NCBI GenBank assembly: GCA_029241985.1
Contig: JAQWUU010000004.1
Span: 1-64,000 of the forward strand
Source of the DNA: Aquiluna sp.
GTDB lineage: Bacteria; Actinomycetota; Actinomycetes; Actinomycetales; Microbacteriaceae
DNA: 64,000 nucleotides
Direction of reading: 5' to 3'
Part shown: positions 42-11,492 of the stretch, piece after piece
How positions within the stretch are numbered: the first letter of the stretch is position 1
How the letters are laid out: the number at the start of each line of letters is the position of its first letter
Position numbers and translations under genes: made by a program
The notes under the pieces: generated by a model
Told to the model about the DNA's origin: nothing
The model's database searches: none
What the model saw: the letters and a program-made list of their open reading frames with translations, nothing else

Positions 42-117
<76 letters not shown>

Positions 118-155: not shown

Positions 156-926
156 TTAGACGTTGAGAGTTCCGATTACTACTACCCATGCCAGTATCGA
201 TTTGGATACCAAGCTCAGAACTATGTAGCCCTTTTCTCCAAACTCGTAGAGCTTCCACTTGCCGACCTTCTTGTACTGCAGCCACATGTTTATGGCGAAG
301 GTGTTGAAGAATAAGAAGGTCAGCAAGAAGCCGAATTGCGCGTAGGCCGGAATCGAATCTGCGATGTTGTTAGTAGAGACCCAGAAATACATTCCTCCCA
401 TGATCCATGGAACAATTCCCGCGACAACTCCAAGGTTGAAGGGCATCCAGCTAGTTTTTTCTGTCAGCTGGTTGTAGCGCTCCATCACGAGACCGAACAT
501 GTTCATCAAGAAGTTGAGAGTGAAGATAAAGACCACCGCGGATATCTCAATCAGACCACCGAGCATCAAAAGCACAACCAGCATTAGAGAAGAAGTAATC
601 GAGTACTCCCACCAGCGCGGAGGGTTGATGCCCTTGGCAATGTTCTGCTCGTAACGACGAACGTAAAAAGGTGATGAGATGCATATGTGGGCGATTGCTG
701 AGAGCAACAGAAATATTGGGCCAATCAGCGCGATGGGAAACTCAAACAGAGTCTCACTAACGGGAAAGATTCCCTGGGGAGTATCAGTGAAGAACCTTGA
801 GATGACGGGGATTTTAGTCTCATCGTTCAAGATGAAAAACAGCGCAATGGCCTGGGCTAAATGAAATACACCCGCCAACCTATTGAAGATTTGCAACTGT
901 CTTCCAAGTTTTGTTTCAGGCTTCAT
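156..926 (-). CDS. Heliorhodopsin
   Basis: 256 aa, 7 TM; FNRLAGVFH near N-terminus, WWEYS with E107, GIVPWI, YIVLSLVSKSILAW with K242 in the last helix; close to remembered HeR-48C12 sequence; SD GGGAG upstream. Confidence 0.95.
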   Translation of the reverse strand: MKPETKLGRQLQIFNRLAGVFHLAQAIALFFILNDETKIPVISRFFTDTPQGIFPVSETLFEFPIALIGPIFLLLSAIAHICISSPFYVRRYEQNIAKGINPPRWWEYSITSSLMLVVLLMLGGLIEISAVVFIFTLNFLMNMFGLVMERYNQLTEKTSWMPFNLGVVAGIVPWIMGGMYFWVSTNNIADSIPAYAQFGFLLTFLFFNTFAINMWLQYKKVGKWKLYEFGEKGYIVLSLVSKSILAWVVVIGTLNV

Positions 927-1216
927 TTGTTTTCTCCCGGTTACTTTAATGAGCCCAAATATTCAGCTCCACGCCATTAAGCCTAAGCGAAACGAAACCA
1001 TAATCAAATTACCAAGCCACCGTGCTTGAGCCTTGGTCGAAGGGGTCTCTGAATCGGCTCACTTATCTTTCATCGGTGGTTCGTGCGCTTGGCTATTTGG
1101 ACCCGAGATTGTTCACCTTTACAGGAATTTTGGTTCAAGTTTGAATTGGTTGTAATCTTTGAGGTACGTGCGACTGCTGTTGTCACAATCTCAACACCCA
1201 ACGAAAGGGATTCAGC

Positions 1217-2435: not shown

Positions 2436-3047
2436 ATGACCTGGCAAACCTGGATTCTTTACGCTGTTGCGGCAGCGGGGTTGTCGTTGACTCCAGGCCC
2501 AAACGGGCTCTTGGCCCTCACCCACGGAGCCTTATATGGCGCCAAGAAAACTATCGCAACGATTATGGGTGGGTCACTCGGGTTTGCCCTGATTATCGGG
2601 TTGTCAATGTTTGGCATCGGTGCGCTTCTGGCGACAGCCGCCGGGTGGCTCGTGGTCTTGAAATGGGCAGGTGGCGCGTATCTGGTGTGGCTTGGCGTGC
2701 AGCTGATCCGAGCTGACCCGATAAGAATTCAAGCTGTTGAAAATCCCAAAAACATCACGGCAAGTTCGCTCTTTAGCCAGGGATTATTTTCCGCGCTCAG
2801 CAACCCCAAGGGCATTCTGTTCTTCGTGGCCTTCTTGCCGCAATTTGTTGGAACGGAGACTTCTCTTTTCACTCAGTTTCTGATCATGGCGCTGACTTTT
2901 GTTCTAATCGAATTTGGCTATGAAATTGCAGTTGCCTCGATGGCGGACAAGATCAAGCCGTGGCTTGCGAAGGCGGGAAAGAAGTTCAACCTATTTATTG
3001 GTTTGGTTTTTGTGATTATTGGCGTGCTGTTACCCCTTAGAGGTTAA
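2436..3047 (+). CDS. LysE/RhtB family amino-acid exporter
   Basis: LSLTPGPNGLLALTHGALYGAKKTI N-terminus, about 200 aa, polytopic. Confidence 0.85.
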   Translation: MTWQTWILYAVAAAGLSLTPGPNGLLALTHGALYGAKKTIATIMGGSLGFALIIGLSMFGIGALLATAAGWLVVLKWAGGAYLVWLGVQLIRADPIRIQAVENPKNITASSLFSQGLFSALSNPKGILFFVAFLPQFVGTETSLFTQFLIMALTFVLIEFGYEIAVASMADKIKPWLAKAGKKFNLFIGLVFVIIGVLLPLRG

Positions 3048-3505
3048 AGTCCGAGGTGCTCTCGCAGAAACTCGATGTGACCCTTTGCCTTTACGTTATA
3101 GAAAACGTGGCTCACGAAACCTTCTTTGTCGACCACCAATGTTGACCTAATGGTTCCCTCATACTCCTTGCCATACATTTTCTTGAGGCCGAAGGCTCCG
3201 TAGGCTTTCTGGACGGCGCTATCTTCATCACTCAGCAGGTTGAAGTTGAGGCCCTCTTTTTCCTGGAACTTCTTAAGCTTTCCGGGCTTGTCGGGAGAGA
3301 TTCCTAAAACGGTGTAGCCGGCTGATTTCAGCGAATTGATGTTGTCTCTGAAGTCGCAGGCTTGGGTTGTGCAGCCCGGGGTTGCCGCAGCCGGGTAAAA
3401 GTAGACAATTACGTTCTCACCTTTGCAATCAGATAGTGAGACCGAGTCTCCGTCTTGGTTTAGCAGTGTGAAGTCAGGTGCCGCGGTTCCAATTTCTAGT
3501 GTCAT
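3044..3505 (-). CDS. bcp: Thioredoxin-dependent peroxiredoxin, Bcp type
   Basis: PAAATPGCTTQACDFRD peroxidatic Cys motif. Confidence 0.92.
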   Translation of the reverse strand: MTLEIGTAAPDFTLLNQDGDSVSLSDCKGENVIVYFYPAAATPGCTTQACDFRDNINSLKSAGYTVLGISPDKPGKLKKFQEKEGLNFNLLSDEDSAVQKAYGAFGLKKMYGKEYEGTIRSTLVVDKEGFVSHVFYNVKAKGHIEFLREHLGL

Positions 3506-5377: not shown

Positions 5378-5836
5378 ATGACGGCTGTGGTTTCCAAGTC
5401 TCAGGTTGAACAGCTGGCAACTGAGTTGTTGCAGGCCAATGGCCTAATTCAGTATTCATTTGGCTTTGACAGGGCTGTGAGGCGGGCGGGACAATGTGAT
5501 TTTTCTAATCGGCGAATCACCCTAAGTAAGCACTTTATTGAAAATTCAACCTTGGACTCCATTCACCAGGTTTTGCTCCATGAAATAGCGCATGCTTTGG
5601 TGGGTCAAGATGTCGGCCATGGAAAAGCCTGGAAGCAAAGGGCGAGTTTGCTGGGATATCGTCACGAGAAGCTTGACGGCGCTGCCATTGCCAAAAACTC
5701 AGCTAAATATCTCGGCTTGTGTGCAGTAGGCCACAGGCACTACCGAATGAGAAGACCAACCAGGGCGTTGAGTTGCCAGTTGTGCAATCCGAGTTTTTCC
5801 AGAAAACACCTAATCGGTTGGACTTCAAATAATTAG
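5378..5836 (+). CDS. SprT-like zinc metalloprotease
   Basis: LLHEIAHALVGQDVGHGKAWK and C-terminal GHRHYRMRRP..SCQLC zinc ribbon; ATG at 5378. Confidence 0.85.
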   Translation: MTAVVSKSQVEQLATELLQANGLIQYSFGFDRAVRRAGQCDFSNRRITLSKHFIENSTLDSIHQVLLHEIAHALVGQDVGHGKAWKQRASLLGYRHEKLDGAAIAKNSAKYLGLCAVGHRHYRMRRPTRALSCQLCNPSFSRKHLIGWTSNN

Positions 5837-6690
5837 CTCGGGCCGATCAAAAGTGCGCTGATTAGTGCACCTGCAAAGAAATTTAGCCAAATGAATCTCT
5901 TCCAACCCCGGTTCGCCTGCTCGCAAGTTTCGTCAGTGATACTGAACTCTCTTGCAGTGACAATCAAGTAGGGGACTGCAGCAAGACATGCAAATACAAA
6001 TCGACCCGGCAGGTAAGTAAGAGCAAGGCCCGCGAATAGGTAGAAGCCAAAAGCCAAACGGACCGTGAGCCTTGCACCAAAGAAGGTCGCGATAGACGCT
6101 ATGCCGGCTTCGCGGTCAGCGCGAATATCCTGGACAGCACCGAAGGCATGCGAAGCCATTCCCCAGAGCAAAAAGGCAGAAATCGATACGACGAGCTCAA
6201 GACTTGCAACACTCACCCCAGCAAGCACCAGTCCATAAACCAGCGGCCCGAGAAAGTGGGTGGCCGAGGTAAACGAATCCAGAATTGGGATTTCCTTGAA
6301 CCTCAGATATTTAGCGGAGTAGGCCACCACAGCAAACAGAATAATTAGCAAAGTTATGTTTGCTGCGGTGCTCCCGATAAACATCAGGTAGATGACGAAG
6401 GGTAGGGCTATCAAGCTTGCGAGTAACAAAGTTGCCCTGTGGTACTTGGGCTCTAGAAGCGCGCCCTCAAGCCCGCCCTTTCTTGGGTTGGTGAGATCTG
6501 ACTCGTAGTCAAAAACATCGTTGACGCCGTACATCAAAAGGTTGTAAGGAATCAGGAAGAAGAACGCCCCTATCAAAAGTTCAGGCGAGACTGATCCGGT
6601 GCTTAGAAAGTAAGCCACTGCAAACGGGAAGGCCGTGTTGATCCACGAAATCGGCCGGGATGACACAAAGAGTCTTGAAACCAGCTTCAC
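5833..6690 (-). CDS. crtEb: UbiA-family prenyltransferase, probable lycopene elongase
   Basis: NDVFDYESDLTNPRKGGLEG and DIRADREAGIAS Asp-rich motifs; last gene of the crt operon. Confidence 0.85.
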   Translation of the reverse strand: MKLVSRLFVSSRPISWINTAFPFAVAYFLSTGSVSPELLIGAFFFLIPYNLLMYGVNDVFDYESDLTNPRKGGLEGALLEPKYHRATLLLASLIALPFVIYLMFIGSTAANITLLIILFAVVAYSAKYLRFKEIPILDSFTSATHFLGPLVYGLVLAGVSVASLELVVSISAFLLWGMASHAFGAVQDIRADREAGIASIATFFGARLTVRLAFGFYLFAGLALTYLPGRFVFACLAAVPYLIVTAREFSITDETCEQANRGWKRFIWLNFFAGALISALLIGPS

Positions 6691-6974
6691 AGTTTGGTCC
6701 TAAAGAAATTGAAAAGTGATGGAACTACAACGATAGCTAGCACGGTGTAGGCAAAGTCTTCAATTGGGGCAAGGCCGATGGTTATACCGGAGATTTTCCC
6801 CGGGTCATAAGCCACAATTCCGGTGCCAATAATCACATTATCGAAGATTGCAGTAAGGGTGAGCATCACTCCCGTTGTTGCCAGAAGCGGCTTGGCCACG
6901 AGCCACTTGCGCATTAGAAAGCCATAAACGGAAAGCACTGAAATGACAGTCAAGGTCAAAAGTAGATAGCACAT
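6687..6974 (-). CDS. crtYf: Lycopene cyclase subunit, heterodimeric type
   Basis: 95 aa, 3 TM, DNVIIGTGIVAYDPGKISGITIGLAPIEDFAYT (PIEDF motif). Confidence 0.88.
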   Translation of the reverse strand: MCYLLLTLTVISVLSVYGFLMRKWLVAKPLLATTGVMLTLTAIFDNVIIGTGIVAYDPGKISGITIGLAPIEDFAYTVLAIVVVPSLFNFFRTKL

Positions 6975-7297
6975 TTGCCAAACCTCCTTGCAAACCCAAG
7001 GTAGACAAGGAGTGTGTTGTAGCTAAGGAGTATTAGGAAGAAGAGTTCTTCTAGAGGAAGCTCCGGAGCAAGCAATAATCCGGAGAGGTGCGGTGCATCT
7101 CCGCGGAAGAAAATACCAAGGGCTATTCCGGCTAGATCCCAAACCAGGAAAAGTACAACGGCTATTGCGATTGAAAGCCCAGCTGCCCTAGCAGAGGTTG
7201 AGAATGCCAGTTTGTGCCGGATGTCTAGCAAAACAAGGCCGCAGATTGAAAAAAGTAGGGCCGCTAAGTAAAGGAAGGGAGTAATTGCTTCAATCAA
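6956..7297 (-). CDS. crtYe: Lycopene cyclase subunit, heterodimeric type
   Basis: 113 aa, 3 TM, LLAPELPLEELFFLILLSYNTLL (PLEE motif). Confidence 0.88.
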   Translation of the reverse strand: MIEAITPFLYLAALLFSICGLVLLDIRHKLAFSTSARAAGLSIAIAVVLFLVWDLAGIALGIFFRGDAPHLSGLLLAPELPLEELFFLILLSYNTLLVYLGFARRFGKCAIYF

Positions 7298-8871
7298 CTA
7301 ATTCCCTTCCACCTCTGGACCTTTGTTAGCTCCTTGGCGATCGGTCCGGAAGAGCGGTCGTTTACTAAGTGCTTATAAACCAGCTCAGCTCCGATCAAAC
7401 ACATCGGCAAACCAATTCCCGGGATGGTGTTGTGCCCGGTGTAGAAAAGGTTCTTGAGCTTCCTGGAGTAGTTCTTTGGTCTAAAAAATGCACTTTGGGT
7501 CAGAGTGTGGGCCATGCCAAGGGCAGTTCCGCTCCAGGCATTAAGTTCATTTTCGAAGTTAGCTGGGCCCATTGATCTACGAACAACGATCCTGTCCGCT
7601 AGATCTGGAATATCACACCACTTTGCAATCTGATCGATTACTTTGTCAGCCTCTAACTCAAAAGCTACATCACCGGCCCGATCAATACCACCTGCACCGA
7701 TCGATGGATCTGGTGCGATAGGAACCAGTACGAAGAGGTTTTCGTGTCCCTCTGGGGCTACTGAATCGTCAGTCTTCGATGGATTGCAAATGTACAGGGA
7801 GGCTGGAGTTGGGATTCGGCTCTTGCCGTCTGCCTTGCGGAAAACTTCGGCAAAGTTTGAGTCCCAGTCTTTGGTGTACAAAAGTGTGTGGTGATTGAGC
7901 TGGGGCAGTTCACCCTTGACGCCCAAATAAAGCAGCATTGCTGAGGGGCCCGGGGTTTTCTTGTCCCACCATTTCTGCGGGTAAGTCTGGTGCTCTTTAC
8001 TGAGCAGCTTTGTCTCGACGTGATGCAGGTCGGCGCTCGCAACTACAACATCCGCAAAAATCTCAGATTGGCCAATCTCTATACCGACAGCCTTGTTGCC
8101 ATGGGTCAGGATCTTTGAAACGGGTGAGCCGGTGTGGATCTCCACACCGTGATGCTTTGCAAGTCTGACGATTGCTTCGATAACGGTGTGAAGACCACCT
8201 TTTGGATAAAAAACACCCTGCTTCATATCAACGTGCGTCATCAGGTGATACATGCTCGGGGTGTCGTAGGGCGAAGCCCCCAGAAAAACAGCCGGAAAGT
8301 TCAGCATTTTCTTCAGGCGCTCATCCTTTACGTATTCGCCCGAAAATGAGTACAGCGGCTTAATCAAAAGCTTGAGAAAGCGCCCGAGTTTGGCGATAAC
8401 TTCCGGCTGCACAAAGCTTCTAGCGTCCATGAAGTTTGTGTAGAGGAAGTGTTTGATGGACAGTTCGTAGGCACTCTCTGCGCTTTTGAGGTAACGCTCT
8501 AAACCTTCAGAGGAGCCCTCTTCGATTGAATCGAAGAGGGCTTTGATCCCCTCAACGTTATCTGGCATCAGTAGAGAGTCGCCAAGACCTTCATTTCTGG
8601 TCTGGTAAGCCGGGTTCAGCCTCACTAGATCCAGTTCTTTGTCAGCCGTGGTGCCCATAAGTTTGAAGAATTGCTCAAACGCGTCCGGCATCAAATACCA
8701 GCTCGGCCCCATATCAAAGCGGAAGCCGTCTTTTTCCCAGACATCTGCTCTGCCACCAAGACTGTTGTTTGCTTCAAAGAGCTGAACCTTCATCCCAGCC
8801 TTGGCAAGCAGTGCTGCCGAGGCAAGACCTGCGATTCCTCCACCAACTACAACGGCGCTTTTAGTACTCAA
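7294..8871 (-). CDS. crtI: Phytoene desaturase
   Basis: N-terminal GGGIAGLASAALLAKAGMKVQLFEAN, C-terminal YTGHNTIPGIGLPMCLIGAELV. Confidence 0.95.
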   Translation of the reverse strand: MSTKSAVVVGGGIAGLASAALLAKAGMKVQLFEANNSLGGRADVWEKDGFRFDMGPSWYLMPDAFEQFFKLMGTTADKELDLVRLNPAYQTRNEGLGDSLLMPDNVEGIKALFDSIEEGSSEGLERYLKSAESAYELSIKHFLYTNFMDARSFVQPEVIAKLGRFLKLLIKPLYSFSGEYVKDERLKKMLNFPAVFLGASPYDTPSMYHLMTHVDMKQGVFYPKGGLHTVIEAIVRLAKHHGVEIHTGSPVSKILTHGNKAVGIEIGQSEIFADVVVASADLHHVETKLLSKEHQTYPQKWWDKKTPGPSAMLLYLGVKGELPQLNHHTLLYTKDWDSNFAEVFRKADGKSRIPTPASLYICNPSKTDDSVAPEGHENLFVLVPIAPDPSIGAGGIDRAGDVAFELEADKVIDQIAKWCDIPDLADRIVVRRSMGPANFENELNAWSGTALGMAHTLTQSAFFRPKNYSRKLKNLFYTGHNTIPGIGLPMCLIGAELVYKHLVNDRSSGPIAKELTKVQRWKGIS

Positions 8872-9761
8872 GGCTTGGCTCCTAGCAAAGTTTTTGCAAG
8901 CAAAATTAGCTTGCGTAAGTTGTTAACCGAAATACGGGCCTGAATTAGTTCCTCGGCTTTGGTTTTTGCAATCTTTTTATTGAGCTCCTGAAAAAGCAAC
9001 TGTGCAGCCGTGACTGCTTTTCTAGGTGAGGCTGGCAATAGCGGAAGAGCTAGAGCGGAAACACGAAGGTCATTCTCAATGTCCGCAACCAGAGCATTTT
9101 TCACATCATCGTTAAAGGTCTTCACATCAACGCCAGGAAAGTAGCTCCGTCCCAGTTTTTCGAAGTCCGATGCCAAATCTCTTAGAAAGTTCACTTTTTG
9201 AAACGCTGCACCCAAAGCTCTTGCTCCAGTAACCATCGTGGTTTTTTCATGCTCTGAATATTTGTGCCCGTGCACGAAGGCCGCCAAGCACATCAGCCCC
9301 ACCACCTCGGCGCTGCCGTAGACGTAGCGCTGGAAAGATGCCTGATCGTGAATCGTCTCAGTCAGGTCCTGACGCATCGAGAAGAAAAATGGTTCGACTA
9401 TTTCTTTTTTGATTCCGACTTCTCTTGCGGTGAGCGCAAAGGAATGGATAATCAAGTTCGTAGAGAAACCCCGCTTCATGGCCAGGTAGGTTTCGTTCTC
9501 AAAATCAGTTAGCAGTTGACCCGGATCGAGGTCAGCCTCAATGATCGCTGCCTCGGCAGCCGACCCGTCAACGATTTCATCGGCAACGCGCACAAGAGCG
9601 TAAATGTTTTCGATGTGAGCGCGTAGTTGCTTGGTAATAATCCTGGTGGCAAGGCCAAAAGAAGTTGAATAGGAGTAGATGACTTCTTTGCTAGCGCGGT
9701 GCGCTGCGATGTTATAAAGCGCCAAACCGGTGGGCACCTTGGTCGTATCTTGTTTTTCCAC
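8868..9761 (-). CDS. crtB: Phytoene synthase
   Basis: YSTSFGLATRI, ALVRVADEIVDG, VNFLRDLASDFEKLGRSYFPG; GTG 9761 chosen over the 9812 start because the latter overlaps ilvD. Confidence 0.92.
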   Translation of the reverse strand: MEKQDTTKVPTGLALYNIAAHRASKEVIYSYSTSFGLATRIITKQLRAHIENIYALVRVADEIVDGSAAEAAIIEADLDPGQLLTDFENETYLAMKRGFSTNLIIHSFALTAREVGIKKEIVEPFFFSMRQDLTETIHDQASFQRYVYGSAEVVGLMCLAAFVHGHKYSEHEKTTMVTGARALGAAFQKVNFLRDLASDFEKLGRSYFPGVDVKTFNDDVKNALVADIENDLRVSALALPLLPASPRKAVTAAQLLFQELNKKIAKTKAEELIQARISVNNLRKLILLAKTLLGAKP

Positions 9762-9800
9762 ACCTTCAGGGTATCGCGATATAAAAAGTAAGATTGAACT

Positions 9801-11492
9801 ATGACCAATCACATGAAGCCAAGAAGCTCTGTAGTAACCGACGGAATTGAGCGAGCGCCTGCCCGCGGAATGCTCAGAGCAGTTGGTATGGGAGATGACG
9901 ACTGGGTGAAGCCTCAGATCGGCGTTGCCTCCTCTTGGAATGAAGTGACTCCCTGCAATCTGTCGCTGGACCGCTTGGCAGACGCAGCCAAGGTTGGTGT
10001 GCGCAGAGCAAACGGTTGGCCGATGGAGTTTGGCACGATCTCGGTTTCAGATGGAATTTCAATGGGCCACGAGGGAATGCACTTTTCACTTGTTTCCAGA
10101 GAAGTTATCGCCGACTCCGTCGAGACCGTCATGGAGGCTGAGCGCCTCGACGGATCTGTGCTCCTGGCTGGTTGCGATAAGTCCCTACCAGGCATGTTGA
10201 TGGCTGCAGCAAGGCTTGATTTGGCTTCGGTCTTTTTGTATGCCGGAACCATTGCTCCTGGCTGGGTAAAGCTCACGGACGGCACCGAAAAGCAGGTCAC
10301 AATCATCGATGCCTTTGAAGCTGTTGGAGCTTGCAAGGCTGGCAAGATGAGTGAAGAAGATTTAGGTCGAATCGAGAGAGCAATTTGCCCAGGCGAAGGC
10401 GCCTGCGGCGGAATGTATACCGCTAACACAATGGCTTCCATTGGAGAAGCGCTGGGCATGAGCCTTCCCGGCTCCGCTGCACCACCATCAGCTGACAGAC
10501 GCCGTGATGACTGGGCTGAGCGTTCCGGTGAAGCGGTCGTGAACCTGATAGACAAGGGCATAACAGCGCGGCAGATCATGACCAAAAAGGCATTTGAAAA
10601 TGCAATCGCAGTTCTGATGGCTTTCGGTGGTTCGACAAATGCCGTGCTGCATCTATTGGCCATAGCTCGTGAGGCAGAAGTCGACCTACAGCTTGCGGAC
10701 TTTAATAGGATCTCCGACAAGGTGCCCCACTTGGGTGACCTAAAGCCTTTCGGCCAGTACGTAATGAACGATGTGGACAGAGTCGGAGGTGTGCCGGTGC
10801 TGATGAAGGCGCTTCTCGATGCAGGGCTGATGCACGGCGACGTGATGACCGTCACGGGTAAGACAATGGCCGAAAACTTGGCGGACATCACTCCACCAGA
10901 CCCAGACGGCAAGATTATTCGTGCAATGAATAACCCAATTCATAAAACCGGTGGAATCAATATCTTGCACGGGTCAATTGCCCCAGACGGAGCTGTAGTC
11001 AAAACTGCAGGCTTTGATCTTGCAAGTTTCGAAGGTCCAGCAAGGGTGTTCGAGCGCGAGGCTGCCGCAATGGAAGCACTGTCAGAGGGCAAGATTTCTG
11101 CCGGCGATGTCGTCGTTATTCGCTACGAAGGCCCCAAGGGTGGCCCGGGTATGAGGGAGATGTTGGCGATCACCGGTGCTATCAAGGGTGCGGGATTAGG
11201 AAAAGATGTTCTACTATTGACGGACGGCAGATTCTCAGGCGGCACAACCGGACTGTGTATCGGCCACATTGCGCCAGAGGCGACCGAAGGTGGTCCGATT
11301 TCTCTGGTTCGTGATGGAGACTTGATTCGAGTCGACATTGCTGCTCGTACGCTCGACTTACTGGTCAGCGAAGAAGAGCTGGCTGAGCGTCGTAAAGACT
11401 GGCAGCCATTGCCTCCGAGATACACCCGCGGAGTGCTAGCTAAATTCTCAAAGTTGGTACATTCTGCTTCCGAGGGCGCGTACTGCGGTTAA
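9801..11492 (+). CDS. ilvD: Dihydroxy-acid dehydratase
   Basis: 563 aa, [51 protein letters not shown]. Confidence 0.97.

Follow-up and report, generated by a model that had tools for sequence, protein, structure and literature searches.

Heliorhodopsin function is still debated; AbHeR signals with glutamine synthetase (PMC9529153), and OcHeR acts with an ABC transporter (PMC11109279). The best solved match to the protein described here (HeR-B) is TaHeR from a Thermoplasmatales archaeon (PDB 6IS6; 42% identity; TM 0.90 and rmsd 1.4 against the HeR-B model), which shares the counterion, the retinal lysine, the histidines and a Met/Met colour-tuning state with HeR-B, but has Ala at the third tuning site (Ser241 in HeR-B) and Ser in place of Thr111; the HeR-B host, by contrast, is actinobacterial. 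The actinobacterial 48C12 (PDB 6SU3; 39% identity) has the same fold and functional residues, but differs in its Gln/Gln/Ala tuning residues and groups with HeR-A, the other heliorhodopsin of the HeR-B genome. The V2HeR3 group is distinguished by two hallmarks of proton transport in TM6, E191 and the gate residue W195 (PMC9448325), where HeR-B has T203 and F207. Operon-coupled heliorhodopsins have a co-directional partner (e.g., glutamine synthetase), whereas HeR-B is without one. MAGs of Nanopelagicales and Saccharimonadia (L043-L059) contain heliorhodopsins of this type that are 63-80% identical to HeR-B, form one clade with it (support 100/100), and have the Met/Met state, but their gene neighbourhoods and hosts differ. 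Within the same genus, saltwater Aquiluna were described as carrying two evolutionarily distant heliorhodopsins per genome together with one actinorhodopsin, with blh rare and the rhodopsins transcribed (West et al., 2025; PMC12422013); HeR-B and the second heliorhodopsin of that study most likely represent the same gene class. Both the family and two-copy genomes were therefore known already; a full-text search of PMC12422013 found no mention of colour tuning or of tRNA-linked islands.

The window (the whole stretch of DNA analysed, 64,000 nucleotides) opens contig C4 in the assembly of a 1.31 Mb, 90.5% complete genome of an Aquiluna-type actinobacterium. The HeR-B open reading frame is intact and begins with ATG (Table 1). 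Its product matches a single Pfam family, PF18761 (heliorhodopsin, or type-3 rhodopsin), far above chance (score 281.5 bits, cut-off 26.7) and across the full profile (1-242 of 242), and has no match to the type-1 microbial rhodopsin family PF01036 at E 1e-3, having SxxxK in place of DxxxK. All sequence matches among solved structures are heliorhodopsins, TaHeR being the nearest, followed by 48C12. An AlphaFold2 model, for which the window and related loci were the input (pLDDT 90.9, pTM 0.87), has seven helices and a TM1-TM2 beta hairpin, as in TaHeR and 48C12; its top ten PDB matches are all heliorhodopsins, and type-1 rhodopsins rank after them with far weaker scores. By homology, the topology is predicted to be inverted, with a cytoplasmic N terminus. 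The profile match, the alignment to solved structures and the confident fold, shared with 48C12, uphold the family assignment of an earlier sequence-only reading, as well as its designation of E107 as counterion and K242 as Schiff-base lysine: HeR-B is a genuine heliorhodopsin and, as a gene, an unexceptional representative of a family already described. Relative to orthologues, dN/dS is approximately 0.03-0.07 where dS, which is near saturation, could be estimated, and HeR-B is under strong purifying selection. A promoter scan of the locus gave no signal beyond that of shuffled sequences, and a terminator scan little beyond it.

Table 1. Features of the HeR-B locus (positions in the window).
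Feature	Position	Strand	Description	Basis
tRNA-Lys (CTT)	42..117	+	convergent to HeR-B; 3' end is an att-like island-integration site in the genus	
heliorhodopsin HeR-B	156..926	-	256 aa; stop codon included	PF18761 E 6.3e-84; TaHeR 6is6 E 1.8e-58; fold TM 0.90
K242 codon (AAA)	201..203	-	retinal Schiff-base lysine (48C12 K241), motif SLVSK (SxxxK)	alignment; invariant in alignment A1
S241 codon	204..206	-	colour-tuning site (48C12 A240)	alignment; PMC7807009
M214 codon	285..287	-	colour-tuning site (48C12 Q213)	alignment; PMC7807009
M148 codon	483..485	-	candidate colour-tuning site (48C12 Q148)	alignment; PMC7807009
T111 codon (ACT)	594..596	-	Ser in 71 other aligned heliorhodopsins	alignment; 48C12 Ser111 role PMC9726877
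E107 codon (GAG)	606..608	-	Schiff-base counterion	alignment
H80 codon	687..689	-	48C12 H80	alignment
H22 codon	861..863	-	48C12 H23	alignment
Shine-Dalgarno-like GGGAGA	933..938	-	5' of the HeR-B ATG	sequence, by inspection

H22, H80, E107 and K242 all lie at the codons at which they had been placed, and together with S238 they align with H23, H80, E107, K241 and S237 of 48C12, respectively; the TM3 counterion also aligns with E108 of TaHeR, and the TM7 retinal motif reads S238-L-V-S-K242. HeR-B additionally retains N15, S76, R104, Y108, E231 and W247 (48C12 N16, S76, R104, Y108, E230 and W246), residues of a proton-transfer network that has been modelled (PMC9726877). The sole change among the network residues is S111T, Thr being unique to HeR-B among 72 aligned heliorhodopsins. 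The description of the functional residues as complete thus stands for the histidines, the counterion, S238 and the lysine, but not for position 111. A Ser four residues past the counterion (E-S-x motif) is widely conserved in heliorhodopsins without strictly defining them. In 48C12, Ser111, a TM3 residue next to the counterion, is the donor in a hydrogen bond with it (PMC9726877). As Thr111 keeps the hydroxyl, the substitution appears conservative and HeR-B function is probably retained, although Thr111 could shift colour or pKa.

The genome encodes a second heliorhodopsin, HeR-A, on contig C43; it is 48C12-like and falls in a clade clearly different from that of HeR-B. A single type-1 rhodopsin is also encoded; its residue at the position that switches proteorhodopsins between green and blue is Leu, which makes it green-type by that rule. 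Among 13 heliorhodopsins with measured absorption, those above 550 nm had Gln148, Gln213 and Ala240 (48C12 numbering), and those below 540 nm had Met, Met, and Ala or Ser; on a double swap at 213 and 240 the maximum shifted by 12 nm, up or down, and site 148 mutated alone, in one protein, had no significant effect (Kim et al., 2021; PMC7807009). HeR-B has Met/Met/Ser at these sites versus Gln/Gln/Ala in HeR-A, and is therefore predicted to absorb at the shorter wavelength (as a rough estimate, 530-545 nm for HeR-B against about 550 nm or more for HeR-A), so that the two proteins should differ in colour. Across the genus, the triad is QQA in all 20 HeR-A proteins and MMS or MMA in all nine HeR-B proteins; a Microbacteriaceae genome of a different genus (G124) likewise has a QQA and MMS pair, and the QQA/MM(S/A) pairing holds in 10 of the 10 examined genomes with two full-length canonical copies. 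In this set, colour state cannot be separated from phylogeny, since Gln/Gln/Ala is limited to the 48C12-type clade, implying one ancient split rather than repeated evolution. Divergent matches to the heliorhodopsin profile (E 1e-17 to 1e-36) occur in seven other Microbacteriaceae genomes (L155-L161, from G105, G159, G301, G267, G087, G170 and G095); in these the retinal lysine is replaced by A, T, V, R or S and both histidines are mostly missing, and they may have the heliorhodopsin fold without binding retinal via a Schiff base.

The gene order at the locus is tRNA-Lys(CTT), HeR-B, MFS, LysE, peroxiredoxin, LysE, aminotransferase, and a carotenoid series. HeR-B forms a stand-alone transcription unit, with the upstream MFS gene divergent and the downstream tRNA convergent, and no co-directional adjacent partner gene of the kind that would indicate operon coupling (e.g., glutamine synthetase) is present at the locus. 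HeR-B neighbours vary among genomes, and a search for a conserved operon partner over 29 HeR-B neighbourhoods gave none. In relatives, a gene of the catalase-peroxidase type lies upstream of and divergent from HeR-B (L123 in G002, L121 in G019, L122 in G014; PF00141 in the G002 copy, L033:3553-5829), adjoining HeR-B in two Aquiluna genomes and lying one MFS gene farther in G014. A SOUL haem-binding protein (L043, 137-739) is encoded directly upstream of, and co-directionally with, HeR-B-type genes in two Saccharimonas MAGs; members of the same cluster occur in L046, L048 and L057, and the protein recurs near HeR-B in two actinobacterial MAGs.

From the KatG, peroxiredoxin and SOUL neighbours, a photo-oxidative role for HeR-B is plausible, and such a role has been proposed (PMC8612252). 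That photo-oxidative stress is the main setting in which HeR-B acts, as a regulator of or sensor for the nearby peroxiredoxin, catalase-peroxidase and carotenoid genes, is nevertheless rather unlikely: the peroxiredoxin (3044-3505) and carotenoid (5833-9812) genes lie within 9 kb of HeR-B, some relatives have a KatG-type peroxidase as the nearest, divergent upstream coding gene, and SOUL proteins are found again near other HeR-B genes, but none of these peroxiredoxin, peroxidase and carotenoid genes is both co-directional with and adjacent to HeR-B, and peroxiredoxin and carotenoid genes also occur in relatives that lack it.

The interval that follows tRNA-Lys is variable across the genus and contains copies of the tRNA 3' end, 43-55 bases long, in the pattern of tRNA-targeted islands; tRNA-Lys(CTT) is an island-integration hotspot (window 42-117, L114 and L115). 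In some genomes this interval contains an integrase gene (L114:192-1361 in the same genome, by Pfam match, with a homologue in G007). HeR-B directly follows the tRNA in G000, G004, G012 and G017, and is separated from the tRNA or att copy by one extra gene in G002, G006, G014, G018 and G019. The end of contig C32 and the start of C4 share an identical 119 bases, from which it follows that the order upstream core, tRNA-Lys, HeR-B is uninterrupted. A location of HeR-B inside a tRNA-Lys island was rejected: the far side of HeR-B has no att-like copy, and the gene is therefore not enclosed by att copies but lies at the distal chromosomal edge. Contig C1 was likewise rejected as an island between C32 and C4, its tail being unlike C4 and the C32/C4 overlap being exact. 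Besides tRNA-Lys(CTT) at 23-98, C1 (L114, G000:C1) carries an integrase of the phage type, and the 3' end of the tRNA is copied over 50 bases at 7432-7481; the tail of C1 is similar to what follows the tRNA in G005, a relative without HeR-B, and C1 may therefore derive from a co-occurring strain.

In the phylogeny, the HeR-B proteins of Aquiluna share a clade with HeR-B proteins from Nanopelagicales and further actinobacterial MAGs; Saccharimonadia are the sister group of this clade, and 48C12 is placed elsewhere in the tree. Within Aquiluna, the HeR-B allele is closest to that of a distant congener, G017 (92% protein identity), whereas d5, a core gene beside HeR-B, shares 61% identity with its G017 counterpart and 83% with those of G002, G014, G019 and G020; on the other side, d12, d7 and d9 likewise have their closest counterparts in G018 and G019, and the stretch read contains no copy from G017. 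This conflict between allele and flanking core genes implies horizontal exchange, and HeR-B has most likely passed from one lineage to another at a site where the neighbouring genes track the genome. A phage or viral origin was rejected, as HeR-B was unmatched in phage records and viral contigs gave distant relatives only (31-41%). A contig from a 'Deltaproteobacteria' MAG (L079, 4595-4909) contains the 3' portion of an HeR-B gene resembling those of Aquiluna, with 93% DNA identity along 289 bases, fused to unrelated sequence; it lacks the 5' part, is probably mis-binned, chimeric or a truncated gene, and was left out of the count of intact genes.

HeR-A is present in 20 of the 23 genus genomes and HeR-B in nine, each of which also has HeR-A; one further genome contains an unclassified heliorhodopsin fragment. 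This patchiness, together with the adjacent tRNA island hotspot, would fit a redundant or decaying second copy kept temporarily after horizontal gain at a recombination site, as would G020, which has no HeR-B yet retains, side by side, the d19 and d22 genes that flank HeR-B in G018. We regard this explanation as unlikely: HeR-B is intact in all nine genomes, its dN/dS is low, all key residues are retained, and its clade is clearly distinct from that of HeR-A.

Neither a beta-carotene dioxygenase (PF15461) nor an RPE65-type cleavage enzyme was found in the 90.5% complete genome, whereas PF15461 scored above cut-off in six relatives. Since no retinal-forming dioxygenase was found, retinal may be scavenged, and the HeR-B chromophore may be obtained from outside the cell. 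The carotenoid cluster encodes a UbiA-type protein (likely lycopene elongase), a CrtI-type desaturase, phytoene synthase and two small membrane proteins resembling the halves of a heterodimeric lycopene cyclase, which suggests C50 carotenoids.

Taken together, it is likely that HeR-B is a canonical heliorhodopsin, the second and horizontally exchanged copy in its genome, in which K242 binds all-trans retinal and E107 serves as counterion, and that the protein undergoes a slow, non-transporting cycle that acts on a partner protein and absorbs at a shorter wavelength than HeR-A. By analogy with published family work, we infer that light would isomerise the retinal, and that the Schiff-base proton would then pass to E107 and on in the direction of H80 and the hydrogen-bond network, the photocycle being slow and free of net ion transport; the altered protein shape would in turn change a partner protein at the membrane, making a slow photoreceptor the most likely role. 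It is very improbable that HeR-B is a proton transporter, light-driven or light-gated, of the kind represented by the viral V2HeR3, for although V2HeR3 belongs to the same family and HeR-B has the counterion and a proton-accepting-group region (Q217, E231), the TM6 transport hallmark is absent, as in the non-transporting type, and the published structures of 48C12 and TaHeR are consistent with no transport (PMC9448325).

Aquiluna is a small genus that includes a named strain, IMCC13023, which carries a HeR-B orthologue (L033). To what was known of its heliorhodopsins, the present analysis adds the prediction, open to direct testing, that two copies in one genome differ in colour, together with the rare Thr at position 111 and evidence that HeR-B was exchanged at a tRNA hotspot. 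We tentatively propose that a two-colour heliorhodopsin pair is maintained for distinct light cues in Aquiluna and in one or more other genera of the Microbacteriaceae (that of G124 included), exchanged beside the tRNA-Lys hotspot in Aquiluna, in a possible parallel to the blue/green tuning of proteorhodopsins. Two heliorhodopsins that differ at tested tuning sites constitute a natural pair within one cytoplasm, and their colour, photocycle and role can therefore be compared directly.
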